Source: a virus
Virus record (IMG/VR): IMGVR_UViG_3300017786_003967
Span: 1-27,452 of that record
Reading direction: 5' to 3' (one strand)
Length of the DNA stretch: 27,452 nt
Part shown: positions 3,859 through 23,084 of the stretch, piece by piece
Layout: each line of letters begins with the position of its first letter
Position numbering within the stretch: the first letter of the stretch is position 1
Position numbers and translations under genes: made by a program
The notes under the pieces: model-generated
What the model saw: the letters and a program-made list of their open reading frames with translations, nothing else
Told to the model about the DNA's origin: nothing
The model's database searches: none

Positions 3859-4091
3859 TAGTGAACGCTCCCTTTATCTTTCTCTGCATGTTGTATCATT
3901 TTATCTCTCGAGCCTGGTTGTAACACTTCCAACACGTCAAGCAGTTTCCTGTATCCTTCTGTTTTCAATATGTCCTTGTTGACTTTTGGCATTATGACTC
4001 TTCCTACAGATCCGTCTTCTTTGATTATTACAGCACAGTCGCCGTCATCAAACTCTAAGTTATCAGACACTTCTAAATCTATCTTAGACAA
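3858..4091 (-). CDS. Small acidic protein of unknown function (77 aa)
   Basis: A short protein with an acidic first half (DNLEFDDGDCAVIIKEDGSVG, a likely beta-hairpin) and a helical second half ending in a His/Lys-rich tail. No family recognised. It overlaps the zinc-finger gene upstream by 8 bp and touches the DnaE-like gene downstream, so it is firmly inside the operon and probably translationally coupled to the DnaE-like protein. Because it directly precedes that unusual gene, a partner role is conceivable, but nothing in the sequence shows it. Confidence 0.55.
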   Translation of the reverse strand: MSKIDLEVSDNLEFDDGDCAVIIKEDGSVGRVIMPKVNKDILKTEGYRKLLDVLEVLQPGSRDKMIQHAEKDKGSVH

Positions 4092-4767
4092 TCTTGGCCT
4101 CCCTTGCTGTGTCCTGCACTAACATGTGATCCGCCGGATAACTTTTCAACTTGCTAGGCCAGAAACTTGTGTTTATAAATCTTTCTATCATTTGTAATTG
4201 TTCGTCGTTAAATGATTTTAACATCCTTTTGCCTGCGTTGCAACCTAGCAACAACCAAGGACTTATCTTGCCTTGCTGTATGTGTTGCACTGCTCTGTTC
4301 TTGTTTACAAGTCTGAAGTAGTCCGACCACTGTGCGTTCTGTTCTGTGGCCCAGTCCATCATTGTGGCTATGCTTCTCTGTAGTGCGGCCTCCACGGGTT
4401 CTGACTTCAGTGCTTCTATCAAGTACATCTCGTAAAGATCATCCCTGGCCCAATGATCCAGTTTCACTTTTGATTGTAGCACATAGTCTATGTACTTCTC
4501 AGGATACAAAGGGTTGATGTGCATTATGAATCTTCCAAACTTGACGAATGCGTTGTAGTATGAACTCTTAACGAAATCGTCGTATGTTTTTGTTTTTGAA
4601 TTATGTTGATGTATCTGATAGAATCTCTGGAACACCATAAATGCATTCACCACCCATTTTTCATCACGTTGTAGATATCTTCTCTTTGGTTCACACAAAT
4701 GTACTTGCAGTGTACGTTCCTTAGCAAACTCCTTGCCACAGTATGTGCATTTATTTGTCGATGCCAT
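4084..4767 (-). CDS. C2H2-type zinc-finger phage protein
   Basis: The 227-residue protein starts with a single zinc finger: C7-x2-C10-x12-H23-x-C25 in a context reading CTYCGKEF...LQVHLCEPKRR. The first three ligands fit a C2H2 finger; the last is a Cys only two residues after the His, which is shorter than usual. The remainder is alpha-helical, with many aromatic and charged residues and no catalytic motif I recognise. Zinc-finger proteins of this layout occur among uncharacterised T4-like marine phage proteins, to my recollection. It overlaps the gp62-like gene by 17 bp. The position next to clamp-loader and polymerase-like genes suggests DNA or replisome binding; this is inference. Confidence 0.6.
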   Translation of the reverse strand: MASTNKCTYCGKEFAKERTLQVHLCEPKRRYLQRDEKWVVNAFMVFQRFYQIHQHNSKTKTYDDFVKSSYYNAFVKFGRFIMHINPLYPEKYIDYVLQSKVKLDHWARDDLYEMYLIEALKSEPVEAALQRSIATMMDWATEQNAQWSDYFRLVNKNRAVQHIQQGKISPWLLLGCNAGKRMLKSFNDEQLQMIERFINTSFWPSKLKSYPADHMLVQDTAREAKIV

Positions 4768-5203
4768 GTGCCTCTATCAGTTCCTCTAGTTCTCTGTCTG
4801 TAATCACTTTGTCCAATGTCTCTAGGTCTGCTTCCTTCCATGTAGGGTATATTGCCTGCAGTTTCTTTAGACTCTTGTTGGGCACACGCTTCATGGGTTT
4901 TAGCCATGGATGGAACTGCTGTGTCTCTGCTCCACACATGGCGGTCAGTATCCATAACAGTTTCTTGTGTTTGCCCAACGTGAAGCAGTGCTTGTTCACG
5001 CACTCGTTGACCATCTCTATGTAGTGTTCTACGTAAAAAGTATCCTTGGATGACACATTGGAAACGTATCTCATCAGCATGTACGGAGAGTACAACGATT
5101 TCTCCTTGTCGTCGATCCTGTCGAAGTAGTCCTTGTTCCTGAAGTCTACCGCTTTCAGTCCGTTCCTTAGATCAAAAAATTTTCTATTTTTTTCTGCTGG
5201 CAT
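4751..5203 (-). CDS. 62: Probable clamp-loader small subunit (gp62-like)
   Basis: The 150-residue protein contains SPYMLMRYVSNV (about 39-50) and later KLLWILTAMCG...FHPWLK. These match the pattern I recall for gp62: a Y-xF/Y-M/V-N/R-x-L/V-S segment followed by an L-x-x-L...K-x-W-x-K segment (T4 has YSKFMVENALS and YLMAAVPRGKRYGKWAK). T4 gp62 (187 aa) joins gp44 to load the gp45 clamp. The protein is shorter than T4 gp62, which is normal for marine relatives. Neither gp44 nor gp45 is in the window, so genomic context gives only partial support. It overlaps its neighbours by 20 and 17 bp. The alternative is an unrelated small helical protein. Confidence 0.55.
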   Translation of the reverse strand: MPAEKNRKFFDLRNGLKAVDFRNKDYFDRIDDKEKSLYSPYMLMRYVSNVSSKDTFYVEHYIEMVNECVNKHCFTLGKHKKLLWILTAMCGAETQQFHPWLKPMKRVPNKSLKKLQAIYPTWKEADLETLDKVITDRELEELIEAHGIDK

Positions 5204-5417
5204 ATTTTAGTGCAAACATTGTGCAATCTTTCGCTGTTGCAAATGTTAATTTTAGTTTCTTGTTCTTGTGATGTAAACCTGAAAATTGGAATTTGTGTTT
5301 CTTGATGAAGTCAAAGAAATTGTGCATCCAGTCCTCGTCCATCCATACAGCGATCTTGTTGCTGGTTATAAGAATTGGTGCATCGATTGTTATTGTTTTC
5401 CTACCAGACCGAGCCAT
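5184..5417 (-). CDS. Small basic protein of unknown function (77 aa)
   Basis: The frame is open from 5465, but the start chosen is the internal ATG at 5417, giving MARSGRKTITIDAP and a 17-bp overlap with the upstream gene, like the other junctions in this operon. The protein alternates short beta strands with a Lys-rich region (HHKNKKLKLTFA) and ends with a helix. The fold looks like a small alpha/beta domain; no family recognised. The longer version starting at 5465 would add 16 residues and overlap more deeply. Confidence 0.55.
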   Translation of the reverse strand: MARSGRKTITIDAPILITSNKIAVWMDEDWMHNFFDFIKKHKFQFSGLHHKNKKLKLTFATAKDCTMFALKYASRKK

Positions 5418-5904
5418 AGTCCACCTGTTCACACTGTCTTGATATGTCCTTGACAAAGTAGGCACACATAGGTTTTGGACCGTTATGTAAGGGTACTGCC
5501 AACATCTGTCCTGATTTGATCTTTGGAAAATACCATTTCACTTCTGTATAGATATCCACCACGTCTATTGGATAGAAGTCGGGTTTTGGACTTGATAACG
5601 GATTGAATGTGAAAGCATCAAATCCTCTGTCGTTTAGACTTGTGATTGGTAACACGTGCATCTCAGATTGTCCTGCTTCGCCTATCAACATCTTCCAATC
5701 CAGTGGCATCTTTATCTTATGTGGCCCGATCTCTAACACCGCCGCTGGTGCATTGAAGCTCTCTAAGAAAATTAAAGGTATGTAGAAGAAATCAGGATTA
5801 GCGGGATCTGAATTGTCAAGCACTGCGAATCTCAACTTCTCGTCCACCCACTCGGGTATCTTCTCTAACTTGTATGTTCTGTTATCCAGTGTAAGGATTT
5901 TCAT
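5401..5904 (-). CDS. Phage protein of unknown function (167 aa)
   Basis: The protein is predominantly beta-rich, with hydrophobic strands such as FYIPLIFLES and DVVDIYTEVKWYF and a C-terminal stretch HNGPKPMCAYFVKDISRQCEQ. I do not recognise a domain and see no catalytic signature, signal peptide or membrane segment. Its start overlaps the 3' end of uvsW by 23 bp, so it is tightly coupled to the helicase gene. That placement suggests a DNA-metabolism or transcription-accessory role, but this rests on position only. Confidence 0.6.
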   Translation of the reverse strand: MKILTLDNRTYKLEKIPEWVDEKLRFAVLDNSDPANPDFFYIPLIFLESFNAPAAVLEIGPHKIKMPLDWKMLIGEAGQSEMHVLPITSLNDRGFDAFTFNPLSSPKPDFYPIDVVDIYTEVKWYFPKIKSGQMLAVPLHNGPKPMCAYFVKDISRQCEQVDYGSVW

Positions 5905-7348
5905 AATTTATCTTTTCTATATTATACGGGTAATTGGCCTCTTTGTAAAACTTTTTCCTTGCCCCTAAGTGTCTTTTCGCAAACTTGCAACTGCTGGTAA
6001 TATCCCAGATCTGTACACTGTCTTTGTCTTCCGCTTTCCTGATACCACGTCCTATGCTCTGTATTACCCTCACGAACGACTTGCCTGGTTCTATGAGAAC
6101 AAGATTAAAAATCCTAGGAATATTAATACCAACAGCGGCCACTCCATATGTGGCGATAATAACTTTATTTGTTGCAGTAGATATTTCATCATATTGTTCC
6201 TTCCTGTCTGTGTTTTTGGTTGACCCGGACACGAATACTGCATCTTCGATTTGTTCTTCTAGAATTTCACCTGCAGATATCCTGTCCACAAGTATCAGTG
6301 TATTGCCCGAACTTGATATGTCTTTGATTGTGTTGGCCACCCACTTCATCCTGGTCTTGTCTGTGGTAAGCCATTTAAGTTCCTCACCGTACGTTTTGAA
6401 CTGTGGATGATCTTGTGTCTGCAACACATTCACATGACAATTCGCCAACACACCCTTGTCTTGCAGTTCACTGGCCTGTATCCTGTTGGACACATCACCT
6501 ATGCTACATTTTAATCCCATGAACTCGTAATCTGCTTTTGGTACTGTTCCTGTTAGTCCCCAACGTATGCCACAGTGTGCGAATGGCCCGGTCAACAATC
6601 TTTTCAACACATCTGCTTTGGCCATATGCACCTCATCGATGATCACTGTGTTTATTCCTTGTATTGCCTCTAGGAAGTCCGTCGTGTGTTCGTCTTTGCT
6701 TTTCTTTTCTAGTACGTTTAGTGACTGCCATGTTGCTATCGTGTTGAATCTGCCTAGTTCCTTCCTGTCTCCGTAGTACACACCTACGTCTAAGTTACAA
6801 GCAAGGAAATCTTCCTCGGTCTGTGTCACGAGACTCTTGTTTGGTACAATAGTAAGTGTACGACCGTATGGCTCGACCAGTTGGCACAAGGCCGCTGTGA
6901 TTATGGTCTTACCTGCACCAGTGGCTATCTCTTGTATGCTTTGTGGATGTTCTATGAACTTGTTAATAGTCTCCACTTGATAGTCTCTCAATTCGATTGG
7001 CTGTCCCGCCGCTGGATGATTCTCCGGCCACGTTATGTGTGACAGGTAATTTTTATCCACCGCTTTGAATTCAAAGTTGTGTTGCTCTCTCCTATCCTCG
7101 ACATCAATATAAACACCACCCTCGTCTAGTATGGGAAGTATTTGATCAACTAGGTTTAGATATGTTGTGCCACCCAACCCAAAGAATGATACCTTCCCGT
7201 CCCACCTGCCTAACTTCACTGCTGGAAGATGTCTCGCATATGGTATTTCGTATTTGAATTTGTTGGAGAGCCTCTTACGCCATTCGAGACTCAAGTTCTC
7301 GAACTTCACATTTACCTCATCTTTTATTACTAATTTACAACTGCTCAT
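5882..7348 (-). CDS. uvsW: UvsW-type SF2 DNA/RNA helicase
   Basis: At 488 residues, it is close to T4 UvsW (about 500). The SF2 motifs are in order: RDYQ (121-124), Walker A ATGAGKT (142-148), DEVH (238-241), motif III LTGT (265-268), and motif VI QSIGRGIRK (430-438). The N-terminal 100 residues form the small wing-like domain expected in UvsW. The enzyme unwinds D-loops, R-loops and regresses stalled forks, moving the phage from origin-dependent to recombination-dependent replication. It starts 1 bp after the HARP-like gene stop (TAG-A-ATG), with no independent Shine-Dalgarno sequence, so translation is probably coupled. Transcription likely starts at the sigma70-type promoter at 8734-8761. 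Confidence 0.93.
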   Translation of the reverse strand: MSSCKLVIKDEVNVKFENLSLEWRKRLSNKFKYEIPYARHLPAVKLGRWDGKVSFFGLGGTTYLNLVDQILPILDEGGVYIDVEDRREQHNFEFKAVDKNYLSHITWPENHPAAGQPIELRDYQVETINKFIEHPQSIQEIATGAGKTIITAALCQLVEPYGRTLTIVPNKSLVTQTEEDFLACNLDVGVYYGDRKELGRFNTIATWQSLNVLEKKSKDEHTTDFLEAIQGINTVIIDEVHMAKADVLKRLLTGPFAHCGIRWGLTGTVPKADYEFMGLKCSIGDVSNRIQASELQDKGVLANCHVNVLQTQDHPQFKTYGEELKWLTTDKTRMKWVANTIKDISSSGNTLILVDRISAGEILEEQIEDAVFVSGSTKNTDRKEQYDEISTATNKVIIATYGVAAVGINIPRIFNLVLIEPGKSFVRVIQSIGRGIRKAEDKDSVQIWDITSSCKFAKRHLGARKKFYKEANYPYNIEKINYENPYTG

Positions 7349-7349
7349 T

Positions 7350-8699
7350 CTAAAGTTTTACTATTATGTGATCATGCCAATCCCAACTACTCGGTTGGTG
7401 ATCACTATAATACAACTTTTTTGGAAGATTTTCAAGCATTCTTTTCAGGTTGTCCGTGCCCGTGGCATAATAACCACCGCCTAGTGTGATCAGTGATGCT
7501 TTTGGTTTTACTTTGCTCTTGATTAATGCCCTTGGTATTCTATTCCTCACGAATATTATTTTGGTATCTTGGTTAATCAGTTTAAATTGTTTGCTCATTT
7601 GATGTAACTCATATAGGTTCTCAAAGAACTCTTTTGATTTTTGATTGTCCAACAGATAGGTCCTCTCACTGGTGAAACGGTCTATGTCCTTCTTGTAGAT
7701 GGGCTCTTTGACATCGAATCCCCAACTGCACTCATTCAATAAATCAATACCATGTGCCTTGAAAGCATTCATCCATTCCCAGAATTCTTTTACATCTTCC
7801 TCCATATGGATGTCACCACTCACGGGCATCATTAATGGGAAACATTCCAGCTCTATTAATCCTTTGACTACCTCATTCTTAGAACAAGTCTTTGAATCGA
7901 TCCATAACTTATGATATTTGTTGTGTGAAATTTTTTTACCTATGTGTGTCAATGCAGGCACGTCTATACCTTGTGTAGATATATTGAAATTCTTTAATGA
8001 GTCCACTTGTTCTAATGCAGTGCGTGGTTTAAGATTTTTGTCCCAATAAGTTTGTAGTGATTCAGGAGCATTGTTCAATACAATCTGCCCGGCAATTAAA
8101 TTTGCCGTTGGTTGACGATGTCCTATTATTTCTTTTTTGATTTCTTCATAGTCATTTAGTAAACTGTCGTCTGTGAATTTGAAATCGTATCTCACAGCGA
8201 TCAAGGTCAGATAGTAAGCAGTAACATCACTGTGTTGGAAGGTCCATCTCTTTTTCTCACCATCGTACAATGCGTACATGCCAGGCAAGTCACGTGTATC
8301 TTTCAAGCAACGTATAAGTTGTATCACTTTCTTGTTGTAAGGAAATCTCATCTCTATCCTATCGATATTATCATCGTCTGTGTACTTCTCAATGACCTTG
8401 TCAAAACTGATCACCCGGAAGTCGTCCTCATATTGTGGATTGTCTAACAATTTCTTGATGTCCATGCCATGTGCTTGGAACTTGGTCAGATATCTTTTGA
8501 GTATGACCAGTGCTAGTCTGGCCTGCTTCTCTGTCCAAGCATACTGTGATTCTGCCAAGGATCTCACTGTGTCGTAATCTTTAGGGTGTGGCTTGATTAC
8601 GGCTGTATTTCCTATCATTGACGGATTTGCCCAAAAATAATCATTATATGCTAGTATTTTGAGTGCTTCGTTAATTGTTTTTGGCAAATCTGACTGCAT
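7350..8699 (-). CDS. Unknown protein with a HARP-like segment, partner gene of uvsW
   Basis: The 449-residue protein has no Walker motifs. Residues about 113-160 (RIEMRFPYNKKVIQLIRCL...GMYALYDGEKKRWTF) follow the pattern of the HARP/annealing-helicase accessory domain: a beta strand, the phrase 'pY-x-x-x-hIxxhK', then 'YD--KK-W-F'. In SMARCAL1-like and related phage enzymes this module sits on the same polypeptide as an SF2 helicase. Here the SF2 helicase UvsW is the very next gene. The C-terminal half has conserved-looking aromatic clusters (WEWMNAF, ECSWGFDV) of unknown role. It is the first gene after a strong promoter and has an AGGA Shine-Dalgarno sequence about 7 bp before the ATG. The HARP assignment is by eye and moderate at best. 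Confidence 0.6.
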   Translation of the reverse strand: MQSDLPKTINEALKILAYNDYFWANPSMIGNTAVIKPHPKDYDTVRSLAESQYAWTEKQARLALVILKRYLTKFQAHGMDIKKLLDNPQYEDDFRVISFDKVIEKYTDDDNIDRIEMRFPYNKKVIQLIRCLKDTRDLPGMYALYDGEKKRWTFQHSDVTAYYLTLIAVRYDFKFTDDSLLNDYEEIKKEIIGHRQPTANLIAGQIVLNNAPESLQTYWDKNLKPRTALEQVDSLKNFNISTQGIDVPALTHIGKKISHNKYHKLWIDSKTCSKNEVVKGLIELECFPLMMPVSGDIHMEEDVKEFWEWMNAFKAHGIDLLNECSWGFDVKEPIYKKDIDRFTSERTYLLDNQKSKEFFENLYELHQMSKQFKLINQDTKIIFVRNRIPRALIKSKVKPKASLITLGGGYYATGTDNLKRMLENLPKKLYYSDHQPSSWDWHDHIIVKL

Positions 8700-8763: not shown

Positions 8764-9240
8764 ATGAAAAAGGTAAAGAATAAAGCAGTAAATGTAAGGA
8801 AGCAACTGAAAGTCAAGTTGGAAAATACTGCGACTAGGTATAAAAATATAGTTGGATTTAGACCAACAGAACACCAGGCATATCAGTGGTTTAGATACAT
8901 TAACAAAGCACTATTCAACAGCAGATTACCAATGGTACCATTACATGTAAAAAAACTGCACAAGGACTGGGGCAGATGTGTTGTCAATTGGGACAACAGG
9001 AAAACACCCAAAGGCAGGTTCAATCAAAAAATAATTCCTTATCATATAGATTTAGAACATTACATAGAAATACACTGTAAGTTCCCCACGTGGAAAGACT
9101 TCATAGAAACTCTAGCACACGAAATGGTACACCTTTATCAAATGACTTGGGTCAAAGATCCTTATGCAAACCACAATGCAAACTTCTTTGCTTGGAAAAA
9201 TAAGTTTAAACTTGCAGGGCTAGGCCTGTCAAGATGTTAA
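8764..9240 (+). CDS. SprT-like zinc metallopeptidase
   Basis: The 158-residue protein has the zincin motif HEMVH (H119-E120-x-x-H123) in the helix ETLAHEMVHLYQ and a third likely ligand H137 in NHNANF, which is the layout of SprT/Spartan-like domains. The segment KDWGRCVVNW (67-76) with GR resembles the strand preceding the active site. The N-terminus is strongly basic (eight Lys/Arg in the first 20 residues), consistent with DNA binding. Spartan-type enzymes cleave DNA-protein crosslinks; a role in clearing DNA-bound proteins during phage replication is inference. It is the only plus-strand gene between two minus operons, and its 3' end overlaps the convergent gene by 12 bp. No clear plus-strand promoter was seen. 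Confidence 0.8.
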   Translation: MKKVKNKAVNVRKQLKVKLENTATRYKNIVGFRPTEHQAYQWFRYINKALFNSRLPMVPLHVKKLHKDWGRCVVNWDNRKTPKGRFNQKIIPYHIDLEHYIEIHCKFPTWKDFIETLAHEMVHLYQMTWVKDPYANHNANFFAWKNKFKLAGLGLSRC

Positions 9241-9978
9241 GACCTTCTCAAATTCAGCGTAACTAATCACTTTACTGTTTCCTAGATCGGTTCCTGTCTG
9301 TGAGTTGTGTAGATACTCCGGCGGATTGTCATGTACCATTGTGTAGTTCACATGTGGTCTCATCTTCAACATGTCTCTAAACTGTTTGAACCAGCCTTCA
9401 AATATCTTGTCGTCGTTACGTTCACCGTAACAGATTGTGTCTTGGTATATGTTGTTTAACTGTCCCTTGCCATACTCCCTGAAGTCGTATCCAATAAGGT
9501 ATATGTTCTTGTGTCCATGCACCCCTGCAGTCCAGAATGCGGCATTGCCTGATATCCAGTGCGGGTTATTGGGTATCAGAGTTATCATGCCCTTGCTCTG
9601 TTTCCTGTTGGCTTCCAGTGCCGGGGCGTAGTGTACTGTTTTTAATCCAACCTCGTCCTCCACCATCTGCATAGACATCTTAGTGTCCACGGAGAATATA
9701 AAGTCGGGAATAAAATCTCTGTAAAGTGCGTTACACCCATACGTCTGTCCTGTCGCTTTAAGTTTATTGAGATCAAAACCCTTACGTGAAGGTCCATTAC
9801 CTATGCAATAGGCGTTGCCTCTTGGAGTGGCCTTTACTCTGTCCTCATAGAAAGCGGTCTCTTGTATTTTTTTACCGTTACGTATGATGAGGTTTGTGTT
9901 TACAGTTTCTCCTTCGTAGGGTTTCCATTCGATTGTCTCTATCTCGTTCCTTTTTTTTCCTATGTTAATTTTTTGCAT
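9229..9978 (-). CDS. GT42/DUF115-like glycosyltransferase-type protein
   Basis: The 249-residue protein has CIGNGPSRKGFDLNKL (58-73), then TYGCNALYRDFIPDFIFSVD, and later ISGNAAFWTAGVHGHKNIYLIGYDF (about 142-166). These three blocks, in this order, match the GT42 sialyltransferase / Maf-like DUF115 superfamily, whose Campylobacter CstII member has GNGPSLKEIDY, FRCNQFYF and SGVYMCAVAIALGYKEIYLSGIDF as I recall it. That superfamily transfers nonulosonic acids or related sugars from CMP donors. The first 50 residues are an extra, charged extension. It is the last gene of the minus-strand glycan operon and is coupled to the upstream gene by a TAATG overlap. No CMP-sugar synthesis genes are in the window, so the donor would come from the host. 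Confidence 0.6.
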   Translation of the reverse strand: MQKINIGKKRNEIETIEWKPYEGETVNTNLIIRNGKKIQETAFYEDRVKATPRGNAYCIGNGPSRKGFDLNKLKATGQTYGCNALYRDFIPDFIFSVDTKMSMQMVEDEVGLKTVHYAPALEANRKQSKGMITLIPNNPHWISGNAAFWTAGVHGHKNIYLIGYDFREYGKGQLNNIYQDTICYGERNDDKIFEGWFKQFRDMLKMRPHVNYTMVHDNPPEYLHNSQTGTDLGNSKVISYAEFEKVLTS

Positions 9979-10847
9979 TACAAGTATCTCTCCTCAAGTT
10001 TCGCTCTAATTCTGGCCCATGGTAGTCCTTGTTCTATCTCGTCCTCAAACCATTCCGTGTATGCTAATTTATTCGCCCATGCCAATCTGTTGGGCATGGC
10101 CGGTGTGTTGATGTCTGCTAATTTTATGTTGCCCACATCATGGCACAGGCTTGATTTAGACACGAACACAGGTATACCTTTCATTACTGCCTCCATGGCA
10201 GGATTGCTTGAATGGTTTACAACTGCCCAGGTCCCCTCTAGTGTTTCTTTGAAATCTGTGTCATCGTAAGTTCTGAAATCTCGTTTTGGCAGTCTAACTT
10301 TCACGTTTTTAAATTTGTTTTCATCGAATGTGATAATGTTCCTAGGGTGTGGCCTGACTAATATTGGCCTGGCCGTGTACTTCCGAATTTCTTGAATCTG
10401 TTGTTCAATCCAGTTTGACATTTTAGGAAGTCCGTTCCATTGTTCAGATGTGTCTTGTTGACCACATATGACAATAAGATCTCCTGTGGGATTCCATGGA
10501 CGCAATTCATGTTTGAACAGAGGCCAACGCTTGTCATCGAATTCTTGGTTGGCAAAATCAGCATCTCTGTTTATTCCGTTTATCCCAATCTTGAAACTGA
10601 GATTTCTACGCAGTCCCCCCACTTCCACAACAATTACAGGCTTGCCTTGCTTCCTGTACCTGTCCCATATTGGTTTGTAACCCTGCATTCTACCACGCCA
10701 TAATACACTCCATATGACCGCAACGTCGCCGTTGGTCTCTTTGTTAACAGATACGTTATCGCCTGTCTTCTGCATTGACTGTATTAGTTTTGCAAAAATG
10801 TTTTTACTGTTGAGTGGGCCATGCATTGGCCACGCTTCTATTTTCAT
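9978..10847 (-). CDS. Capsule-synthesis-like GT-B protein, paralogue A
   Basis: The 289-residue protein has a GT-B-like arrangement: an N-terminal Rossmann-like half with VIVVEVGGL, and a C-terminal half with RPILVRPHPRN, a TWAVVNHSSNPAMEA strand-turn and GIPVFV, then a closing LAYTEWFEDEIEQG helix. RPHP, NHSS..xEA and GIPxF are shared with three other proteins in this island and resemble the capsule polysaccharide synthase (KpsC/KpsS-type) fold. It probably transfers a sugar or acts on a glycan polymer; donor and acceptor cannot be told. It is coupled to the genes on both sides (TAATG overlap downstream, 1-bp gap upstream). Confidence 0.55.
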   Translation of the reverse strand: MKIEAWPMHGPLNSKNIFAKLIQSMQKTGDNVSVNKETNGDVAVIWSVLWRGRMQGYKPIWDRYRKQGKPVIVVEVGGLRRNLSFKIGINGINRDADFANQEFDDKRWPLFKHELRPWNPTGDLIVICGQQDTSEQWNGLPKMSNWIEQQIQEIRKYTARPILVRPHPRNIITFDENKFKNVKVRLPKRDFRTYDDTDFKETLEGTWAVVNHSSNPAMEAVMKGIPVFVSKSSLCHDVGNIKLADINTPAMPNRLAWANKLAYTEWFEDEIEQGLPWARIRAKLEERYL

Positions 10848-10848
10848 T

Positions 10849-11712
10849 TTATATTTTTTTCCAGTAGTCCAGACCTTTTATGTGGTCACCGGCACCTTTG
10901 AAGTCTTTCAATTTACTTTTGCCTTCTGATTTCCTGTTGCCTTTGAAATGATCCATGTACAGGCCCAGTTCACTGTTGATGAACACGTGATGCCCTCGGA
11001 CTCCTTTCCAGTAACCTATGTCGTTTACTTTCACGTTTTTTTCTTTCTGATATCTTTTAGACAAGTACCATAATGTAGAACAATCAGTCCACTCAATTAG
11101 TTCAAATATTTTGTCAGACACATACAGTTCTTCCCAGTCCTTGGTGTAGTTTTGTATTTCAGGATGATTTAGGTTGTATCCTACAAATCCGCATTCTGGA
11201 TACTTTCCACCGTCACTTAGGTTTGGATTTTCCCTACCCAGGTAAGTCAACATTGAATCACCGGGCAGTAAGCCTTTGAAAAACTCTTTTGGTATTGGCC
11301 TAAAGGAGTATGTGTCAGCATCCAACCATATGAGATAATCATAGCCTGCGGAATTTTTAATTGCATGAGTTACACAAAAAACTTTGTTTGCAAATCTCAC
11401 TGCATTCCAAAGGAAAGATCCTTTAGGTGCCATGGGTATTGGTCTACGCACACCGTTTGGTATTTCGTCTATTTCACCGTTTGCCACAGGATCGTCTTTG
11501 TACTTGTTCTTAAATTTTAATAACTCGGGCTGTACCTCATGTGCATCCAACCATTCTACTCTCGGGTGTTCAAATACATCTTGAAACTGTGCTTCATGAT
11601 ACACTGCCACTTGTATATCCTGTGGCCAATGTTGCAACACACTGTCAACTGCTCTCTTGGCATACTCGTTCCAGGTACCTGGTTTGTAAGATGTCAAAAC
11701 TTTGATTTTCAT
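10849..11712 (-). CDS. GT-A-type glycosyltransferase, copy 1
   Basis: The start is placed at the ATG at 11712 (MKIKVLTSYKPGTW), because it matches the start of its paralogue at 17101; an upstream in-frame ATG at 11763 would overlap asnB. The 287-residue protein has a nucleotide-sugar-binding DxD in YLIWLDADTYSF (D131-A-D133), then MLTYLGRE and YPECGFVGYN, and ends with GHHVFINS and DHFKGNRK. This is a GT-A fold enzyme specific to this kind of phage island, as far as I can tell. It lies between asnB and GT-B paralogue A in the same operon. The substrate is unknown. Its first 43 bases are nearly identical to those of the second copy. Confidence 0.7.
   Translation of the reverse strand: MKIKVLTSYKPGTWNEYAKRAVDSVLQHWPQDIQVAVYHEAQFQDVFEHPRVEWLDAHEVQPELLKFKNKYKDDPVANGEIDEIPNGVRRPIPMAPKGSFLWNAVRFANKVFCVTHAIKNSAGYDYLIWLDADTYSFRPIPKEFFKGLLPGDSMLTYLGRENPNLSDGGKYPECGFVGYNLNHPEIQNYTKDWEELYVSDKIFELIEWTDCSTLWYLSKRYQKEKNVKVNDIGYWKGVRGHHVFINSELGLYMDHFKGNRKSEGKSKLKDFKGAGDHIKGLDYWKKI
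11670..11712 (-). repeat. Near-identical 5' end shared by the two GT-A genes (copy 1)
   Basis: The first 43 bases of this gene match those of the gene ending at 17101 almost exactly, including the 12-bp palindrome CCAGGTACCTGG that encodes Pro-Gly-Thr-Trp. The rest of the two genes has diverged much further at DNA level, although the proteins stay similar. The block could be a remnant of gene conversion or a conserved translation-start region. Confidence 0.6.
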
Positions 11713-11728
11713 GATATCGATATTTAAT

Positions 11729-13477
11729 CTACCTAGACATGTTATATTTTTTAATCCAGTCACTTACCAACCATGCGGGTACGAGTGCCTTGCCGGCTTT
11801 CTGACTGGCCTTCGTTACGTCTAATCCAGAATTTTCACCTGTCCTGCCTTTGTAAAAATTATTTAACTTGGCACTGGCACTTGTGGTAAGCCAGTGTCCA
11901 ACAGGAACAGTCCATCCGGTTTTAATTTTATTGATAATCTCATTTGGCAGTTTACCTAGGTATGCTTTCTTAATAAAAGTCTTGGTATTGCTCTTTTTAG
12001 GACCCATTTTCAAATCAGTGTGCATACTCATGCAATATTGCATGAACATTTTTGTTGCTAAAGGAAAACGTCCTTCCATGCTATATGCCATTCCATATTT
12101 GTCGTTTCGACTAAACATCTCTTCCGGAACCTGTGCCACGCAGTCCAACGCCATGTGTGATCCTATAGGATCATCTGGATTCCATAATTCTCCCGAATAA
12201 CATTTACGAAACTCTTCGATTAGTGTGTCATCACTAACAGGATTGTTGGTTAATTGTAATGGACGCTTAATGCGATTGAGCCAAAGTTTCAGCACATCGT
12301 CCCAATTTTCTATTTGCCTTTTTTCTATTTTTTTCAGCAAGAATTCTGGATTTTTCATTTTCCAATACTTTGGATAGCCTGCGAGTATTTCGTCTCCCAT
12401 ATCACCTGCCATGGTTACTACAATATTATTTTGTGATAAAAACTTGTTGGTAGAACAGTACATTGACATACTAGGATTGTATACAGGTTGCTCCATGTAG
12501 TACACGCTGTCATCCCAACTATCTATGAATGCTTCTGGAGTTATCACAACTTCTTTGTGGTTGAAGTTGTTTTGCTGTGCAAGTATGTTGGCACAATTAG
12601 CATCACTGTTGTAATCCTCGTCTGCCTGTACGTTGGGCTCCATCCTGTTTGTGAATGTGTTTGCTTGGCCTTTTAGTTGTTTTAACTCATAAGCAATCAC
12701 ACTCGAATCAAGTCCACCACTGAGGAACACACCGATCTTTCTCCTGCCAATAGAACACATCTCAACTGTTTTTTTAACTTTTGATCTGAATTCCTCCGCA
12801 TTGAATTTTTTATCGCTTGTAGGTTTAATATAGACTCTGTGTGTTTGTGTAATTTTTTTACTGTCAATATCGTATACTATTGTTTCTCCGGCCAGCAATT
12901 TTTTAACTCCAGTGAAGAACGTGTTACGTAAGGCGTTGATCCCTGTCCTTGCCATGAAACTTACTGCAAGGTTATCCATCGTCCTACTGTTGGGAACTTT
13001 GTCCAACATGCCTTTTATCTCAGAGCCGAACACCAATCCCTCTTTTATTTCTGCGTAGTACACAGGTTTCACACCTGCATGATCTCTGCTTAACGTAAGT
13101 GTGCTCTTATCCCTTTCGTAGTATGCAAAGCCGTGCATTGAGTCTATCTCGTCGATAAATGACAATCCAAACTTATCCAATCCCCACGCAAGTAGTTCAG
13201 TATCACAACCCGAAGTGTCTGTGAACTCTTTGTATTTGTCCTTTAGCTCGTAGTAGTTGAAGATTTCTCCATTGTAAACCAGTATGTTTCCTTTTGGAGT
13301 TGTCCATGGCTGGGTTGCATTACCTGGTTCACCCATTATGCTCAACAGGTTATGACCTAATGTTATCTTATCGTTGTGCCAGACACTGGAACCATCCGGC
13401 CCTCTGTGTTTGCAAACTTCTATGAATTGTTTTATGAACGCTGGATTGTGTTCGGTTATGCCGTATATGCCACACAT
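11729..13477 (-). CDS. asnB: Asparagine synthase (glutamine-hydrolysing)-like amidotransferase
   Basis: The 582-residue protein begins MCGIYGI, so Cys2 is the N-terminal nucleophile of a class II glutaminase. The RGPDG motif (25-29) and YNGEIFN (68-74) complete that domain. The ATP pyrophosphatase PP-loop SGGLDSS is at 253-259, followed by AGDMGDE (about 363) typical of the synthetase domain. Length and order match AsnB. In glycan clusters, AsnB homologues are often thought to amidate sugar carboxylates rather than make free asparagine; which applies here cannot be seen. It is coupled to the upstream gene by a TAATG overlap and lies inside the glycosyltransferase operon. Confidence 0.88.
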   Translation of the reverse strand: MCGIYGITEHNPAFIKQFIEVCKHRGPDGSSVWHNDKITLGHNLLSIMGEPGNATQPWTTPKGNILVYNGEIFNYYELKDKYKEFTDTSGCDTELLAWGLDKFGLSFIDEIDSMHGFAYYERDKSTLTLSRDHAGVKPVYYAEIKEGLVFGSEIKGMLDKVPNSRTMDNLAVSFMARTGINALRNTFFTGVKKLLAGETIVYDIDSKKITQTHRVYIKPTSDKKFNAEEFRSKVKKTVEMCSIGRRKIGVFLSGGLDSSVIAYELKQLKGQANTFTNRMEPNVQADEDYNSDANCANILAQQNNFNHKEVVITPEAFIDSWDDSVYYMEQPVYNPSMSMYCSTNKFLSQNNIVVTMAGDMGDEILAGYPKYWKMKNPEFLLKKIEKRQIENWDDVLKLWLNRIKRPLQLTNNPVSDDTLIEEFRKCYSGELWNPDDPIGSHMALDCVAQVPEEMFSRNDKYGMAYSMEGRFPLATKMFMQYCMSMHTDLKMGPKKSNTKTFIKKAYLGKLPNEIINKIKTGWTVPVGHWLTTSASAKLNNFYKGRTGENSGLDVTKASQKAGKALVPAWLVSDWIKKYNMSR

Positions 13478-14457
13478 TACAATCCCAACTTATCTTTGAA
13501 TCTTTTGAACACTGTGCCATCTCTTATTTCCTTTTCGCTCCATAACTTGTAACCGAGGTCATAGAGCCATTGGGTCCTGTCCGGGTACTCTGGTGTTTCT
13601 ATGTTGTTTAGGTCTTTATTTGCCACGGGCCAACTGAGTGCAAGATCTGAAGTATTAAATGTAGGGATTCCACGAACACACGAGTCTACACCGGCAGTGG
13701 AATTATGTGTAACAACAGCATGGCAGTTGGATATCGCTTCTTGATAATTGAACCTATAATATTTTTTTTCGTCTCCGTTGAAATATTTTTGACCTATGAC
13801 AACTTCAACGTCCTCTGGAAATTCTCCCATCCTGTTTTCCATGGCAACAACATGATTAGGATGTGGTCTCACAACAAACTTCCTTTCTGTTATTGGTCTT
13901 AATTTTTCATACACCCCGTGGAACCAATCTATTGGATCGAGCTCGTTCATACTCCAGTTGTCTTTGGGTTGTAGTACAAACATGATTGGATCTTCCTGAT
14001 CTGACTTGCGCCATGGTTCATTTTTGATATTCCATCGGGCCTTCGCCGCTTCCCACCGATCGGGAGGACTGTTGTCTGACAAGAAGTCGCCGTTGTTCAT
14101 GGGTGAAAACAATGCAACTCGCCAGTGATGGTTAGGTCCATGCACGTTACCAAAACTTGAAAGCAATCCACCGTCAAACGTTATTATCTTGATTCCTTTT
14201 TTCTTTGCACGTTCCACTAGGTCTCGTCTACGACCTTTTGTGTGATGCATCTGCTTATTGCCTCCATAACCAAACATGCACCCGATCGGTGCTGTTGGTT
14301 CCATTTCGTTTGGCCGCCACTCTCCGGTCAAATTTTCATTTACTATTATAGGTTCATCTCCGCAGGCTTTTACACCTTCAGCCATGTATTGAAGTAAGTC
14401 CCAACTGGCACCTCTCCGTCTGTCTTTTACTGTACGCCTAAATATTTCAACTTTCAT
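13477..14457 (-). CDS. Capsule-synthesis-like GT-B protein, paralogue B
   Basis: The 326-residue protein is the longest of the four related proteins. Its C-terminal half has KFVVRPHPNHVV, CHAVVTHNSTAGVDS and RGIPTF, then IETPEYPDRTQWLYDLGYKLWSEKEIRDG, the same motif string as in paralogues A, C and D. The N-terminal half contains KIITFDGGLLSSFG, a Rossmann-type strand. The RPHP and HNS-x-A-x-D/E residues are the expected nucleotide-sugar contacts in this fold. It overlaps paralogue C by 11 bp and asnB by 1 bp. The sugar transferred is unknown. Confidence 0.55.
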   Translation of the reverse strand: MKVEIFRRTVKDRRRGASWDLLQYMAEGVKACGDEPIIVNENLTGEWRPNEMEPTAPIGCMFGYGGNKQMHHTKGRRRDLVERAKKKGIKIITFDGGLLSSFGNVHGPNHHWRVALFSPMNNGDFLSDNSPPDRWEAAKARWNIKNEPWRKSDQEDPIMFVLQPKDNWSMNELDPIDWFHGVYEKLRPITERKFVVRPHPNHVVAMENRMGEFPEDVEVVIGQKYFNGDEKKYYRFNYQEAISNCHAVVTHNSTAGVDSCVRGIPTFNTSDLALSWPVANKDLNNIETPEYPDRTQWLYDLGYKLWSEKEIRDGTVFKRFKDKLGL

Positions 14458-15262
14458 CTAGTATTCTCCATGCATAACCATTTCTCATCTCTTCAGCAGT
14501 GAACTGACCGTAAGCCAATGAATGATATAAAGGTTCTCTATCTGTGTATTTAGGTGTCTCTATTTTTGTAAAATCTGTTTCTGATATAGGTGCACAGGCA
14601 TTATGTGGATCAGTGAAACATGGTATGCCTCGTGTGGTTGCTTCTAACGTGATGTTAGAATTGTAAGTTACTATTGCGTATGCGTCATCCCAGTCGATGG
14701 GCCCACTTGGTTTTTGATTATCTTTTCCGGTGACAACATAACCACCGTTTTCGTCCACTCCTATAAGTGGATTGTATCCTTTAGTCTTTACGATAATTGG
14801 TCTGTCAGTATTCTCTTTGAGTGTTTTCAAGGTCTGGTCAAGCCAGTTGTGTACTCCACGGAATTCTTTTATAGCATTGGACGGTGGACAAACAATTATA
14901 TTTTTGCCGGTCTTTTGCCATGGTTTGATCGGCCATGGAAATGTTTGTTTGAAACGATCATCTGGCCTAGACTCTTGCCAGTTTTTTAAGAAATTATTTT
15001 TGACTATCTTCATGAAGTATGGGTGGTTACGTGTTTCTCCCCAATACGGTCTGTCTATATAGAAGAAGTCTATTTTATTTTTTTCAGCCCATTTGTACAC
15101 AAGATGTGTACCACGTAGTAAACCAAGTAAGACTGCTTTGGTGCAGTCCTTTTTTGTTATCATTTCAAGCGGTGATAGTTTTTTGCAATCTGGAAGTCCT
15201 GCAACTGCCCAATCTATATATTTTTCAGTAAGTTTTCTGTTTGTTGAACTAACGTAAATCAT
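14447..15262 (-). CDS. Capsule-synthesis-like GT-B protein, paralogue C
   Basis: The 271-residue protein has DRPIIVKTKGYN where relatives have the RPHP motif, so that element is altered. It keeps YAIVTYNSNITLEA, RGIPCF and the tail IETPKYTDREPLYHSLAYGQFTAEEMRNG. It is most like paralogue D (18888-19700) in overall plan, including an early FFYIDRPYWGETRNHPYFM segment like D's YWFTDTPYFGRF. The loss of RPHP may change donor specificity. It overlaps gmd upstream by 14 bp and paralogue B downstream by 11 bp. Confidence 0.55.
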   Translation of the reverse strand: MIYVSSTNRKLTEKYIDWAVAGLPDCKKLSPLEMITKKDCTKAVLLGLLRGTHLVYKWAEKNKIDFFYIDRPYWGETRNHPYFMKIVKNNFLKNWQESRPDDRFKQTFPWPIKPWQKTGKNIIVCPPSNAIKEFRGVHNWLDQTLKTLKENTDRPIIVKTKGYNPLIGVDENGGYVVTGKDNQKPSGPIDWDDAYAIVTYNSNITLEATTRGIPCFTDPHNACAPISETDFTKIETPKYTDREPLYHSLAYGQFTAEEMRNGYAWRILDES

Positions 15263-16232
15263 GAGACAATCGCCTTATATCTTCTTTAACCATAAAAGAA
15301 ATCATGTCTTTGAATTCGGTTTTAGGTTCCCATCCTAATTTTTCTTTTGCTTTGGCGTATGAGCCGTGAAGTGCAAATACTTCTGCCGGACGTTTGTAAC
15401 GAGGATCCGATTCAACATACTGTTCCCAATCATCTATTTCCGCAGTCTGGAAAGCGATAGTTAATAATTCTCTTATGCTGTGTTGTATTGCCGTGCAAAT
15501 CACATAGTCACTTGGTTCTTTTTGTTGCACCATCGTGTGCATGGCCTTAACGAAATCTCCAGCAAAACCCCAGTCTCTTTTGGCTTCTAAATTTCCTAAA
15601 GTAATTTTTTTAGCAAGTCCTAGTTTAATTCTTGCAACACCATCTGTAACTTTTCTTGTTACAAATTCTTTACCTCTGATAGGAGATTCATGGTTAAACA
15701 ATATTCCATTTGATGCGTGTACGCTATAACTTTCTCTGAAGTTTACAGTCATCCAGTATGAACAAAGTTTTGAAATTCCATACGGTGAACGTGGATGAAA
15801 AGGAGTCTTTTCGTTTTGAATACCCTCATCGTTTGCGTTTCCATACAATTCACTAGTACTGGCCTGATAGAATCTTGTTTGTGGATTTTGATTCACTATT
15901 GCATTTAGTATATTCAACACACCCATTGCATTTACTTCCGTTGTTTGCTTGTTAAGGTCCCAACTTGAACCAACAAAACTTTGTGCGGCAAGGTTATAGA
16001 ATTCGTGAGGTCTAATTGATCTCACTAGGTGATTCATATTTGCATCATCAGTGATGTCGCCTGTGATCAGATCAACATCATTTTCTATTCCTAGATAATC
16101 TAGATTTGAGAAATTTGGATTACTATATCTTTTTACCAAACCATAAACTTTGTAATCTTTCTCCAACAAGTATTTTGCTAGGTAAGGACCGTCTTGTCCT
16201 GTCATTCCTGAGATGAAAGCAATCTTTTTCAT
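15249..16232 (-). CDS. gmd: GDP-mannose 4,6-dehydratase
   Basis: The 327-residue short-chain dehydrogenase has the NAD(P)-binding motif GMTGQDG (9-15), the catalytic triad region ASTSELYG (T126) and YGISK (Y151, K155), plus NLAAQSFVG and RDWGFAGDFVKAM, all characteristic of GMD. It converts GDP-mannose to GDP-4-keto-6-deoxymannose, the precursor of fucose, rhamnose, perosamine and colitose. The enzyme for the second step (for example GDP-fucose synthase) is not in the window. It is the fourth gene from the right in the minus glycan operon. A TATAAT-like box lies just ahead of its start. Confidence 0.9.
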   Translation of the reverse strand: MKKIAFISGMTGQDGPYLAKYLLEKDYKVYGLVKRYSNPNFSNLDYLGIENDVDLITGDITDDANMNHLVRSIRPHEFYNLAAQSFVGSSWDLNKQTTEVNAMGVLNILNAIVNQNPQTRFYQASTSELYGNANDEGIQNEKTPFHPRSPYGISKLCSYWMTVNFRESYSVHASNGILFNHESPIRGKEFVTRKVTDGVARIKLGLAKKITLGNLEAKRDWGFAGDFVKAMHTMVQQKEPSDYVICTAIQHSIRELLTIAFQTAEIDDWEQYVESDPRYKRPAEVFALHGSYAKAKEKLGWEPKTEFKDMISFMVKEDIRRLSHDLR

Positions 16233-16240
16233 TTGTATTA

Positions 16241-16246
16241 ATTATA
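16241..16246 (-). promoter_or_regulatory. Possible -10-only promoter before gmd
   Basis: A TATAAT box on the minus strand lies 9 bp before the gmd ATG, in the only non-coding gap (16233-16252) of this part of the operon. No matching -35 box is present 16-18 bp upstream. A -10-only promoter would fit phage gp55-type late recognition, though the box differs from the TATAAATA consensus. An AT-rich ribosome-binding region is an equally simple explanation. Confidence 0.3.
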
Positions 16247-16252
16247 GTTTTT

Positions 16253-17101
16253 TTACGATGGCGGAATATTTTTCCAATAATCAACGTCATGGAATTGACG
16301 GATATCTTTTCTAGTTGATGTCTGTCGTATTTTCCTGTTACCCTTAAAATGATCTATATAATTTCCAAGCACACTGTTTACAAACACATGATGTCCTGTG
16401 ACACCTTTTCGGTAGCCAATATCATGAACCATGATCTTTTTTTCCTGTATAAATTTTTTTGATAGTTCCCAAAACACGGCCGAATCATGCCATTCTAATA
16501 GTTTGAACACGGAACCGGTAATGTACAACTGCTCCCATTCATTTATGAAATTAAGTGTTTCTTTATGTTTCAAATTGTATCCAACAAAACCGCACTCTGG
16601 ATACACTGATTCTCGCCCAAGATAAGTCAGCATTGTATTTTTTGGCAATACGTCTACTAGGAAATCTAAAGGTACAGGTCTAAAAGTAAATGTGTCAGCA
16701 TCTAACCACACGACATAATCATAGTCTTTAGAATTCCGGATAGCGTTGATCACACAAAAAACTTTATTTGAGAATCTTACTGCGTCCCATAAGAAGGATT
16801 CATTATCCTTGTCCAATCCTTCCAACTTGTCTGATCTCCTCACCCCGTTTGGTATTAGGGTGGTCTTCCCGTTTGCTACAGGATCATTTTTATATTTCTC
16901 TTTGAATGCAAATAAATTTGGTTCTGCTTCTATTAGCTCAACACATTTGATTCTAGGGTGAACATCTTTTGGTTGTTGTTCTTCGCAATACATAACTATA
17001 TCTACATTGTTTGGAAACTGTTCTGCTATAGAATGTATCCCTCGTTTTGCAAACGCTTTCCAGGTACCTGGTTTGTAAGATGTTATAACTTTGATTTTCA
17101 T
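16253..17101 (-). CDS. GT-A-type glycosyltransferase, copy 2
   Basis: The 282-residue protein is a paralogue of 10849-11712. It shares the start MKIKVxTSYKPGTW, the DxD in VVWLDADTFTFRPVP (D134-A-D136), MLTYLGRE, YPECGFVGYNL, and the ending GHHVFVNSVLG.YIDHFKGNRK. The two differ mostly in the middle loops and the C-terminal tail, which suggests different acceptors. It touches GT61 upstream (1-bp overlap) and is followed by gmd after 20 bp. The fold assignment rests on the DxD and the start-strand pattern. Confidence 0.7.
   Translation of the reverse strand: MKIKVITSYKPGTWKAFAKRGIHSIAEQFPNNVDIVMYCEEQQPKDVHPRIKCVELIEAEPNLFAFKEKYKNDPVANGKTTLIPNGVRRSDKLEGLDKDNESFLWDAVRFSNKVFCVINAIRNSKDYDYVVWLDADTFTFRPVPLDFLVDVLPKNTMLTYLGRESVYPECGFVGYNLKHKETLNFINEWEQLYITGSVFKLLEWHDSAVFWELSKKFIQEKKIMVHDIGYRKGVTGHHVFVNSVLGNYIDHFKGNRKIRQTSTRKDIRQFHDVDYWKNIPPS
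17059..17101 (-). repeat. Near-identical 5' end shared by the two GT-A genes (copy 2)
   Basis: This is the counterpart of the block at 11670-11712. It shares the palindrome CCAGGTACCTGG and the flanking bases almost base for base, while downstream DNA is clearly more diverged. Confidence 0.6.
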
Positions 17102-18183
17102 TAGTCGAGATATTTAAGTAGGTCAGGAACATCGATTTTAAAATTTATTAGATCGCTAAGTCTCTTTATACCTTTGGGTTTTTTGCCACCTTCTAGTTTT
17201 ATTGGCACTGTGTTGGCCAAGTATAGTTCGTGTTTTAATCCTAGGTGGTGTGAAAGTAACGGATAGACTTTTTTATGAATCATTTTGGTATCTTGTATCT
17301 CAATTACTTTTGTTCCTGGTTTGCACCAAAGTAGATTGACCAATCCTGCCCCATGAGCCGCAACAATGTGTGTTGCTTCTGCAAATGTTTTCATTTGTTC
17401 TCGTATTGTCATTGTTTCTAACACAACTGTTTCCCATCCTTTCAGGGCCAATAACAGTTCGTCCGAATTTGTCATTCTTCTTGTTTTTGCTCCTGGACGT
17501 AGCACCACAATCTTTCGATGTGGTTCTTTGTACTCTGAACCATGGAGACCTTTGAAGTGTCTCAGCCATGGTGCTAGGTGAGGAGTAATCACTCCATCCT
17601 TTGTATTACTAGCACTGGGCACTAGCAAATGTTTAAACTGCCATGTCTCGTTTTTTGGCATGACGAGTACTTTTATTTCTGGAAACAATTCCTCGATTAC
17701 TTTCTTAAAATATTTGCTCTCGTTGGCCAACACGTAGCAGTATTTTGTAAAATCTGTTGACCAGCGTTTCTCTAAAAGTCTAAATTTTGATATCACATCA
17801 ATCCATATGTGCCATGGGTTGTTCACACTCTCCTCATCAATGGGCAACCATACATACAGATATTTCTCATGGAAGTGTTGGCTGACAGGTGGCAGATCCG
17901 CTTGGACCTCATCACCCCATTGCTTCCAGAGTTTGTGTGTCTTGCCTGGTTTGTTTTTGCGTTGATCCGTGAGACCCCAGATGTAATTGGTTATCAATTT
18001 CTGTTGATAGGTTACTAGTAAAGGACAACTATGCACTTTGCAGTCATAGAATTCAGCAACGAAAGTTGGTAAACTTGTAAAGTTTGGATCAATATTTTCG
18101 TGATATGGTACGCTGTAGTTGTAACTGGTATCTACAGTTTCCCATTTTTCCAAAAAGTATTTGATAGAATCAATGTTTTTCAT
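17101..18183 (-). CDS. GT61-family glycosyltransferase
   Basis: The 360-residue protein has the GT61/DUF563 signature: VVLRPG then a basic RR (about 227-236), MTIREQMKTFAEATHIVAAHGAGLVNLLW (AHGAGL at 276-281) and KPGTKVIEIQ. The N-terminal half varies, as usual in this family. GT61 members include plant xylosyltransferases and bacterial capsule enzymes. It is the first gene of the leftward glycan operon, 40 bp from the divergent SGNH gene, and its promoter would lie in that gap. No signal peptide or membrane span was seen, so it acts in the cytoplasm. Confidence 0.8.
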   Translation of the reverse strand: MKNIDSIKYFLEKWETVDTSYNYSVPYHENIDPNFTSLPTFVAEFYDCKVHSCPLLVTYQQKLITNYIWGLTDQRKNKPGKTHKLWKQWGDEVQADLPPVSQHFHEKYLYVWLPIDEESVNNPWHIWIDVISKFRLLEKRWSTDFTKYCYVLANESKYFKKVIEELFPEIKVLVMPKNETWQFKHLLVPSASNTKDGVITPHLAPWLRHFKGLHGSEYKEPHRKIVVLRPGAKTRRMTNSDELLLALKGWETVVLETMTIREQMKTFAEATHIVAAHGAGLVNLLWCKPGTKVIEIQDTKMIHKKVYPLLSHHLGLKHELYLANTVPIKLEGGKKPKGIKRLSDLINFKIDVPDLLKYLD

Positions 18184-18185
18184 GT

Positions 18186-18214
18186 TTGCATTTTGTGAAT
18201 AACTACACTATAAT
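18186..18214 (+). promoter_or_regulatory. Divergent promoter region with a perfect TATAAT
   Basis: On the plus strand, TTGCAT (18186-18191; three of six to TTGACA), a 17-bp spacer and TATAAT (18209-18214) sit directly before the gene at 18224. Predicted transcription start is near 18221, so the mRNA would have almost no leader. The -10 lies in a 12-bp palindrome CTATAATTATAG (18208-18219), so it also presents TATAAT to the minus strand, where the -35 match is poor. It serves the only intergenic gap between the two divergent glycan operons. Confidence 0.5.
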
Positions 18215-18223
18215 TATAGCACT

Positions 18224-18913
18224 ATGCCCTCTAATCTATTCATTAATGGTTGCTCGTTCCTTACCACCAGACCGAAAGATAATGTAAACACTCACTGTGG
18301 TCTAGAACTAGCAAAACTAATGGGACTGGATGTTGCAGTTAGTCTGGCCGGAGGCGGCAGGGGTTCAAAACGATTGATGTGGACAACTAGAACGTGGTGT
18401 GAGAAGTTCCCAGAACAGGCAGAAAAATGTTTCTTCTTGATTGGATCCAGTGGCGGAAATAGATTTGATTACCCCACCGGAGACGGATACAAAGCACATA
18501 AATTTCCAACAATGAAAACTACATGGAAAACGTGGGATCCAAATAGGGATGAACACACAAAAAGTTTTACAAAATACCTATTCAGAGCAGGAATGGACTT
18601 AGACCAAACTACGCAGATAGAATCAACACTGGCGTTGTTAGATTTACAAGACTATTTTCAAAATAAAAAATATCCATATGTGTTTTATAACACACTCTCG
18701 GATGCAAAAATAACAAATGAAGATATCAAGTTTATGTTTAACAAGATAGACAATAAAAGATTCTTCAAACCAGAGACCAGTCATTTAGATCACACTGTTG
18801 CAAACAAACAAGAATGCAAACCCGGAGATCCACATCCTAGCGTAGAAGGACATAAAGACTGGGCGGGCCAACTTAAAGAGTTTATAGATGCTAACAATTT
18901 ACGCACCATTTAA
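18224..18913 (+). CDS. SGNH/GDSL hydrolase-like protein
   Basis: The 229-residue protein opens with FINGCSF (block I, with S11 as nucleophile and Cys in place of the usual Asp before it). A glycine-rich SLAGGGRGSKR (block II) follows, then GSSGGNR (74-80) near the block III position, and DPHPSVEGH (202-210), which supplies the catalytic Asp202 and His204 of block V. SGNH enzymes in glycan clusters remove or transfer acetyl groups. Its position at the head of the rightward operon with FkbM methyltransferases suggests glycan de-acylation. The ATG is close to the predicted transcription start. It overlaps the next gene by 26 bp. Confidence 0.65.
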   Translation: MPSNLFINGCSFLTTRPKDNVNTHCGLELAKLMGLDVAVSLAGGGRGSKRLMWTTRTWCEKFPEQAEKCFFLIGSSGGNRFDYPTGDGYKAHKFPTMKTTWKTWDPNRDEHTKSFTKYLFRAGMDLDQTTQIESTLALLDLQDYFQNKKYPYVFYNTLSDAKITNEDIKFMFNKIDNKRFFKPETSHLDHTVANKQECKPGDPHPSVEGHKDWAGQLKEFIDANNLRTI

Positions 18914-21539: not shown

Positions 21540-21540
21540 C

Positions 21541-22542: not shown

Positions 22543-23084
22543 TCTTTCACCATAAGATAATCACTATTGAACATGTCATCTATGCCTTTAAGTTTATATC
22601 CCCAACTTTGTAATAATTCTACGGCGTCTGTGTTACCTTTGTTTTGTTCAACAATTATTACAGGAAAATATTTTTTTATAGTTTTTTCGCTTCCTTTGAT
22701 TGCTCTCAATTCATAACCTTCAATATCATATTTTATAAAACCAACATTTTCGTAATTAAAACTATCAATTGTTTTGATAGGCACTTTTATGTTACCATTG
22801 TCTTTAATCCTACCAACCTTGTTACTGGTAGTGAACGAATAACCATTTTGTTCACCAATACCACAAACAGTATAGGTAAACTTTTTAATATCTTTAACAT
22901 TCTTACTAAATTCTTTGACCTTATTTCTAAAATCAAAAGCAAATACGTGTTTGAAGTCCTGTTCCATCTGTGCTGAGAATCCTCCTTCTCTGCAACCAAC
23001 GTCTATCCCGACAGTGTCTTGTGGAATATAAGGTTTAGCCATTGCGTATGTTTCTCGCCAGTTTCTTAGATGTTGCTCGTCCAT
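22539..23084 (-). CDS. FkbM-family methyltransferase
   Basis: The 181-residue protein has the SAM motif GIDVGCREGGFS (26-37), FAFDFRNK for the acidic residue, and FIKYDIEGYELRAIKGSEKTI (117-136), the FkbM hallmark. It is compact and very AT-rich, clearly unlike the UvsX/UvsW genes in base use. It starts on the stop codon of the upstream 87-residue gene (TAATG) and overlaps the radical SAM gene by 4 bp. Likely to O-methylate a sugar. Confidence 0.82.
   Translation of the reverse strand: MDEQHLRNWRETYAMAKPYIPQDTVGIDVGCREGGFSAQMEQDFKHVFAFDFRNKVKEFSKNVKDIKKFTYTVCGIGEQNGYSFTTSNKVGRIKDNGNIKVPIKTIDSFNYENVGFIKYDIEGYELRAIKGSEKTIKKYFPVIIVEQNKGNTDAVELLQSWGYKLKGIDDMFNSDYLMVKE

Follow-up and report, generated by a model that had tools for sequence, protein, structure and literature searches.

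Work on the UvsW helicase of phage T4 has treated it as a motor that acts on its own in fork regression and branch migration. In XPB and SMARCAL1 a DNA-recognition module is placed ahead of the RecA1 lobe, and RecC and AddB are pseudo-helicase proteins, with dead lobes of the RecC type packing against partners within complexes. Utp25 is also presented as a pseudo-helicase protein (PMC9539457), and according to a 2022 review prokaryotes have no known SMARCAL1 homolog (PMC9368896). Concerning UvsW itself, the accessible text of a 2021 comparison of 224 jumbo phages gives the T4-type recombination set as UvsX, UvsY, UvsW and UvsW.1, the last of these being a trihelical, potential DNA-binding partner of UvsW in T4, and the same text makes no mention of a UvsW companion of the kind described below (PMC7824862). 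Likewise, a literature search of the open-access subset returned no description of such a protein. UvsW.1 and the companion are both candidate UvsW partners, but they differ in size and in predicted fold. We rate pseudo-helicase accessory proteins as already known, and UvsW in the proposed role of partner as what is new.

The DNA analyzed here (the window, 27,452 nucleotides, comprising IMG/VR record IMGVR_UViG_3300017786_003967) carries a gene directly upstream of uvsW, whose product we refer to as the companion. As the first-pass annotation had it, this is a 449-residue protein, and UvsW begins one base past its stop codon; the open reading frame has an ATG start and lies on the minus strand, a strand that the annotation did not give. 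The median dN/dS of the companion was 0.069 (range 0.033-0.121), calculated from those pairs of relatives (233 out of 528) in which synonymous changes were unsaturated, and so we regard the reading frame as a real gene under strong purifying selection. The positions of its features and of the adjoining helicase gene are collected in Table 1.

Table 1. Coordinates of the companion, its predicted parts, the gene junction and UvsW in the window.
Feature	Position	Strand	Basis
Companion of UvsW, 449 aa, apparently ATPase-dead	7350..8699	minus	ORF and translation, dN/dS, family alignment A2
N-terminal helical region (predicted), residues 1-90, with conserved TxxQ motif (55-59, WTEKQ)	8430..8699	minus	model and alignment
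HARP/DRD-like module (putative), residues 102-170	8190..8396	minus	model, Pfam
Sub-cut-off Pfam HARP match, residues 116-158	8226-8354	minus	Pfam
Degenerate RecA1-like lobe (predicted), residues ~250-449	7353..7952	minus	structural matches to SF2 lobe 1, XPB Z 9.6
Lost Walker A loop position, residues 264-276	7872..7910	minus	48-member alignment, placed by eye
Possible motif II strand without acidic pair, residues 380-392	7524..7562	minus	48-member alignment, by eye
Stop-N-ATG junction (TAG A ATG) of companion and UvsW, with no SD-like motif ahead of the UvsW start	7346..7352	minus	
UvsW SF2 helicase, 488 aa, complete	5882..7348	minus	

The companion gene is separated from the UvsX gene (25760-26851) by ~16 kb of mostly unannotated genes (9229-25582), among which epimerase-like, sialyltransferase-like and radical-SAM-like matches were found. 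Downstream of UvsW, the window encodes a PHROG 11058 protein (4084-4767, minus strand) with a weak N-terminal match to a C2H2 zinc finger, which falls below the cut-off (E 0.0025).

Two AlphaFold models of the companion, one from a shallow alignment (pLDDT 74) and one from a deep alignment (pLDDT 82), largely agree in secondary structure. In VIA-align, residues ~234-449 were superimposed on lobe 1 of SF2 motors, and SF1/SF2 motor chains accounted for all 50 of the 50 matches listed for each of the two models. The best structural match was XPB, with a Z of 8.7 that rose to 9.6 with the deep model (139-143 residues, rmsd 3.4-3.5 A), followed by SNF2-family remodellers (Z ~8) and T4 UvsW (Z 7.3), on a scale where a Z of up to about 8 counts as common. 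Foldseek returned no match at E<=0.001 for the deep, better model, and the companion sequence matched no SNF2 or helicase family. A profile comparison between the family and UvsW found nothing (E 0.81), and so the relation to RecA1 is one of fold alone. Structure prediction supports a RecA1-like SF2 fold for the C-terminal half of the protein, with no second RecA lobe in the companion, as the model ends after one.

XPB/Rad25 and UvsW, whose first lobes are the best structural matches of this region, are active motors, whereas the companion has neither a recognizable motif I or II nor a lobe 2. Inspection by eye bore out the earlier remark that ATPase motifs are absent: no Walker A or DEAH motif was seen in the companion or in any of its 48 aligned relatives (48/48). 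At the Walker A loop position, placed by eye in the 48-member alignment, the near clade reads DSK-x-x-x-K and the distant clade displays nothing recognizable, and at the possible motif II strand the acidic pair is absent from 48 of 48 members, again by eye. RecC, AddB and Utp25 provide precedents for an inactive helicase fold that persists in the role of partner or scaffold, as we propose for the companion, though they differ from it in their partners and processes, and any complex of the companion is putative.

The companion is conserved in many large environmental phages, where it lies directly before the UvsW gene. In IMG/VR, 169 matches were confirmed as close relatives; each scan was carried forward with its best 80 relatives, here the best 80 of the 169. 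Other databases yielded less: the window companion had no match among 50,697 phage records, phage-record searches with two distant relatives found no isolate, and PDB sequence searches with the companion and with both family alignments (A1 and A2) returned nothing. Alignment A1 was made of close relatives only and left out 7 of 39 non-redundant near relatives. Alignment A2 combines 8 near members with 40 distant ones, the latter 17-23% identical to the window companion, and omits 4 of 44 distant reading frames (L157, L207, L224 and L225) that were unrelated or of the type found in Sinorhizobium phage Phosso.

A wider search used Phosso UvsW as the query and took the best 80 loci. These contained 69 reading frames longer than 300 aa that end near the UvsW start, and 62 of the 69 fell into one BLAST cluster. 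The A1 profile, which is independent of these loci, was positive in 55 of the 80 (E<=1e-3, best 4.7e-16). The deep A2 profile, which includes members drawn from them, was positive in 71, of which 70 abut UvsW and one (L157) lies at 1.56 kb, and it was negative in 9 of 80. PHROG 21015, a group of unknown function, was matched by 20 of 48 family members (best E 1.8e-6) and not by the window companion at E<=0.01; it brings no functional annotation to the companion family.

Linkage to UvsW was nearly invariable. Among the near loci, which were searched from the companion, UvsW was the next gene in 75 of the 75 with at least 300 bp downstream (five lacking this room were set aside), and exactly one base separates the two genes in 56 of the 75. 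Among the distant loci, found with the companion alignment, UvsW was adjacent in 76 of the 79 with room, one locus being set aside. Two of the three exceptions (L262 and L309, the third being L263) have a UvsW N-terminal reading frame that still begins at the companion stop, the helicase gene being broken by an intein-like insertion. At L262 and L309 (~4190-6980), UvsW is laid out as an N-terminal reading frame, a reading frame of ~300 aa and a C-terminal reading frame with an intein-like splice end (HNYIANDAVVANC), and this points to an intein, possibly split, with an inserted gene, situated beside the DEAH-type motif. As for a fusion of the companion with UvsW, no reading frame longer than 610 aa occurred in two sets of loci, where fusion was judged by reading-frame length only.

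The junction also bears on translation. In the near clade, an SD-like motif was missing at 70 of 74 UvsW starts, against a background of 353 of 716 reading frames of at least 150 aa in the same loci. In the distant clade, gene overlaps of 4 or 8 bases are common at the junction, but an SD-like motif was present at 53 of 70 UvsW starts, and so strict translational coupling is not general. Coupled translation is therefore probable for the near clade, and for the distant clade it is possible.

The reading we tentatively favor, at what we judge to be close to an even chance, is that the companion serves UvsW as a dedicated partner: with no ATPase activity of its own, it would bind branched DNA and steer the motor. 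Its predicted layout would start with helices at the N terminus, continue with a HARP/DRD-like module for DNA recognition and end in one degenerate RecA1-like lobe. Companion and UvsW would be made from one message and in step; the basic HARP-like module would grip branched DNA (forks, D-loops or Holliday junctions), the dead lobe would dock on UvsW, and the companion would load, orient or clamp the motor, leading to fork regression and branch migration in recombination-dependent replication. That large phages of deep divergence keep a dead helicase lobe together with UvsW suggests that the motor of these lineages has a partner of its own, and a hitherto unannotated protein family gains a function-linked home. 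If the companion is such a partner, the pair would offer a simple, expressible two-protein system for learning how an SF2 translocase is made into a fork remodeller by accessory modules.

The main rival, which we consider unlikely though by no means negligible, is that the companion mediates recombination or replication independently, akin to UvsY or gp59, in the pathway of UvsW but with no contact between the two, and neighbors UvsW by virtue of a replication operon. The surroundings in the window, with genes for a primase, a DNA polymerase and UvsX, are of this replication and recombination kind, and named jumbo phages have other replication genes beside UvsW. A mere operon neighbor is nonetheless hard to reconcile with a downstream gene that is almost always UvsW across divergent phages and often overlaps the companion, or with a predicted fold that resembles a helicase lobe rather than the known mediators.

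In the model, residues 102-170, the putative HARP/DRD-like module, follow the order strand-strand-helix-strand-strand-helix, and the 48-member alignment displays a conserved basic stretch, RFPY/F-x-K-K, within this module (RFPYNKK at residues 118-124). The HARP-like segment named in the first-pass annotation was found again by Pfam, but at 11.8 bits and E 0.18 it stayed under the curated cut-off of 25 bits (PF07443). Twenty-nine of 33 close relatives gave the same match (best E 0.0021), and since these 33 proteins are 70-93% identical to the window companion, its recurrence among them is not independent; the highest score in a relative, among the matches listed, was 18.4 bits. Counted by record, HARP was matched weakly in 5 of 5 members of the near clade and in 0 of 10 of the distant clade. 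In the mixed alignment A2, whose members include the 8 near ones, 7 of 48 matched, and none was found in the distant-clade consensus. The fold-match lists cover mostly residues 222-449, being filled by the C-terminal lobe, and so the lack of HARP chains in them is not evidence either way. The likeness is suggestive only, and we take it as a lead and not as membership of the family.

The companion resembles SMARCAL1 (HARP) in the succession of a putative HARP-like module and a predicted RecA1-like lobe, with a weak HARP match in the window clade, and departs from it in having neither an ATP site nor a second lobe, in being a separate protein and in a HARP score below the cut-off. A bolder form of the partner reading, decidedly unlikely in our estimate, would have UvsW and a HARP-like dead half-helicase, supplied in trans, make up a two-protein fork remodeller, the phage counterpart of SMARCAL1, in which the pseudo-lobe clamps the motor on the fork. 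If true, a HARP relative would be tied to the motor of a prokaryotic virus, and the textbook T4 helicase would have a widespread second subunit.

The first-pass annotation had instead proposed a possible split annealing helicase whose specificity module acts in trans. On this reading, a true HARP domain would endow UvsW with SMARCAL1-like fork annealing. It could draw on the sub-threshold HARP match shared by close relatives, on the HARP-like order of strands and helices and on the tight linkage to UvsW, and we still find it highly doubtful, since the HARP score is under the curated cut-off wherever tested, the domain is undetected in distant relatives and UvsW is itself complete. Residues 27-473 of the window UvsW align with residues 25-476 of T4 UvsW (2OCA), N-terminal domain included, and its alignments with complete phage UvsWs run from residues 1-5 onward, the 40 phage matches listed covering 97-99% of it. 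The closest UvsWs among the matches listed belong to the jumbo phages Phosso, PA5oct-like Pseudomonas phages, Atu_ph07 and 121Q, all at less than 60% identity. As UvsW is complete, a missing specificity module cannot explain the separate companion, and the split was not upheld. The accompanying idea of action in trans stands in part: a separately encoded, ATPase-dead protein so tightly tied to UvsW makes such action plausible, but what would act goes beyond a HARP module, since the models give the C-terminal half the fold of a degenerate RecA lobe of the SF2 type.

Phosso was the only phage isolate in which a detectable relative was found, and this concerned the N-terminal part. Its gene 418 (212 aa) corresponds to family residues 22-222 (hhalign probability 97.5, E 6.7e-12) and was also recovered by hmmsearch from a test set of ten proteins (E 8.7e-13). 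Gene 419 (500 aa) comes next, with UvsW after it; L157, a relative of Phosso, has the same layout, and so the N-terminal half can be its own gene and still lie upstream of UvsW. The Phosso-type arrangement was seen at L093:3747-5880 and L157:1068-3264, where the protein of ~500 aa has, by eye, worn SF2/SNF2-like motifs, a GTFEERL tail being one example. Gene 419 was considered as a worn SNF2 helicase and set aside, the likeness being one seen by eye for which Pfam, PDB and the other searches gave no support, and a viral-contig scan with gene 419 confirmed no relative. That the companion might be a remnant of an active two-lobe SF2/SNF2 protein, kept as a DNA-binding scaffold, or else a translational leader setting UvsW dosage, would suit this intervening protein in Phosso and L157 and the near-clade UvsW starts devoid of SD-like motifs, but with the SNF2 likeness statistically unsupported and strong purifying selection speaking against a mere leader, we hold it to be very improbable.

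In 121Q, GAP32, Vibrio phage 2.275, Paride and Atu_ph07, the profiles gave no persuasive match to a companion where UvsW is encoded. Six jumbo phages searched by profile over their whole records likewise yielded nothing, in a first pass that was too coarse, as it missed Phosso, which is positive with the direct profile. Since no convincing companion was seen beside UvsW in five of the six named jumbo phages, and 9 of the 80 Phosso-UvsW loci lack one, UvsW can work without it. A candidate relative in Vibrio phage 2.275 (L096:11284-12303) matched the A1 profile weakly at E 0.0044 and was discarded, as it was not recovered with the deep profile. At six loci (L207, L209, L224, L225, L226 and L231), an unrelated gene family of ~357 aa occupies the position directly upstream of UvsW, and L158, L159 and L173 have no companion match and carry a reading frame of 336 aa that ends ~130 bp upstream of UvsW.

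In Atu_ph07, the protein AUZ94890 (181 aa) may be the same as the BFVD match A0A2L0UZF7, which has the same length; profiles gave no confirmation of this candidate as a companion. The one relative found of the Atu_ph07 protein (E 1.1e-5) is encoded downstream of UvsW on a 516,805-bp contig (L246:7771-8388), which suggests that this type of small protein moves around the UvsW locus.
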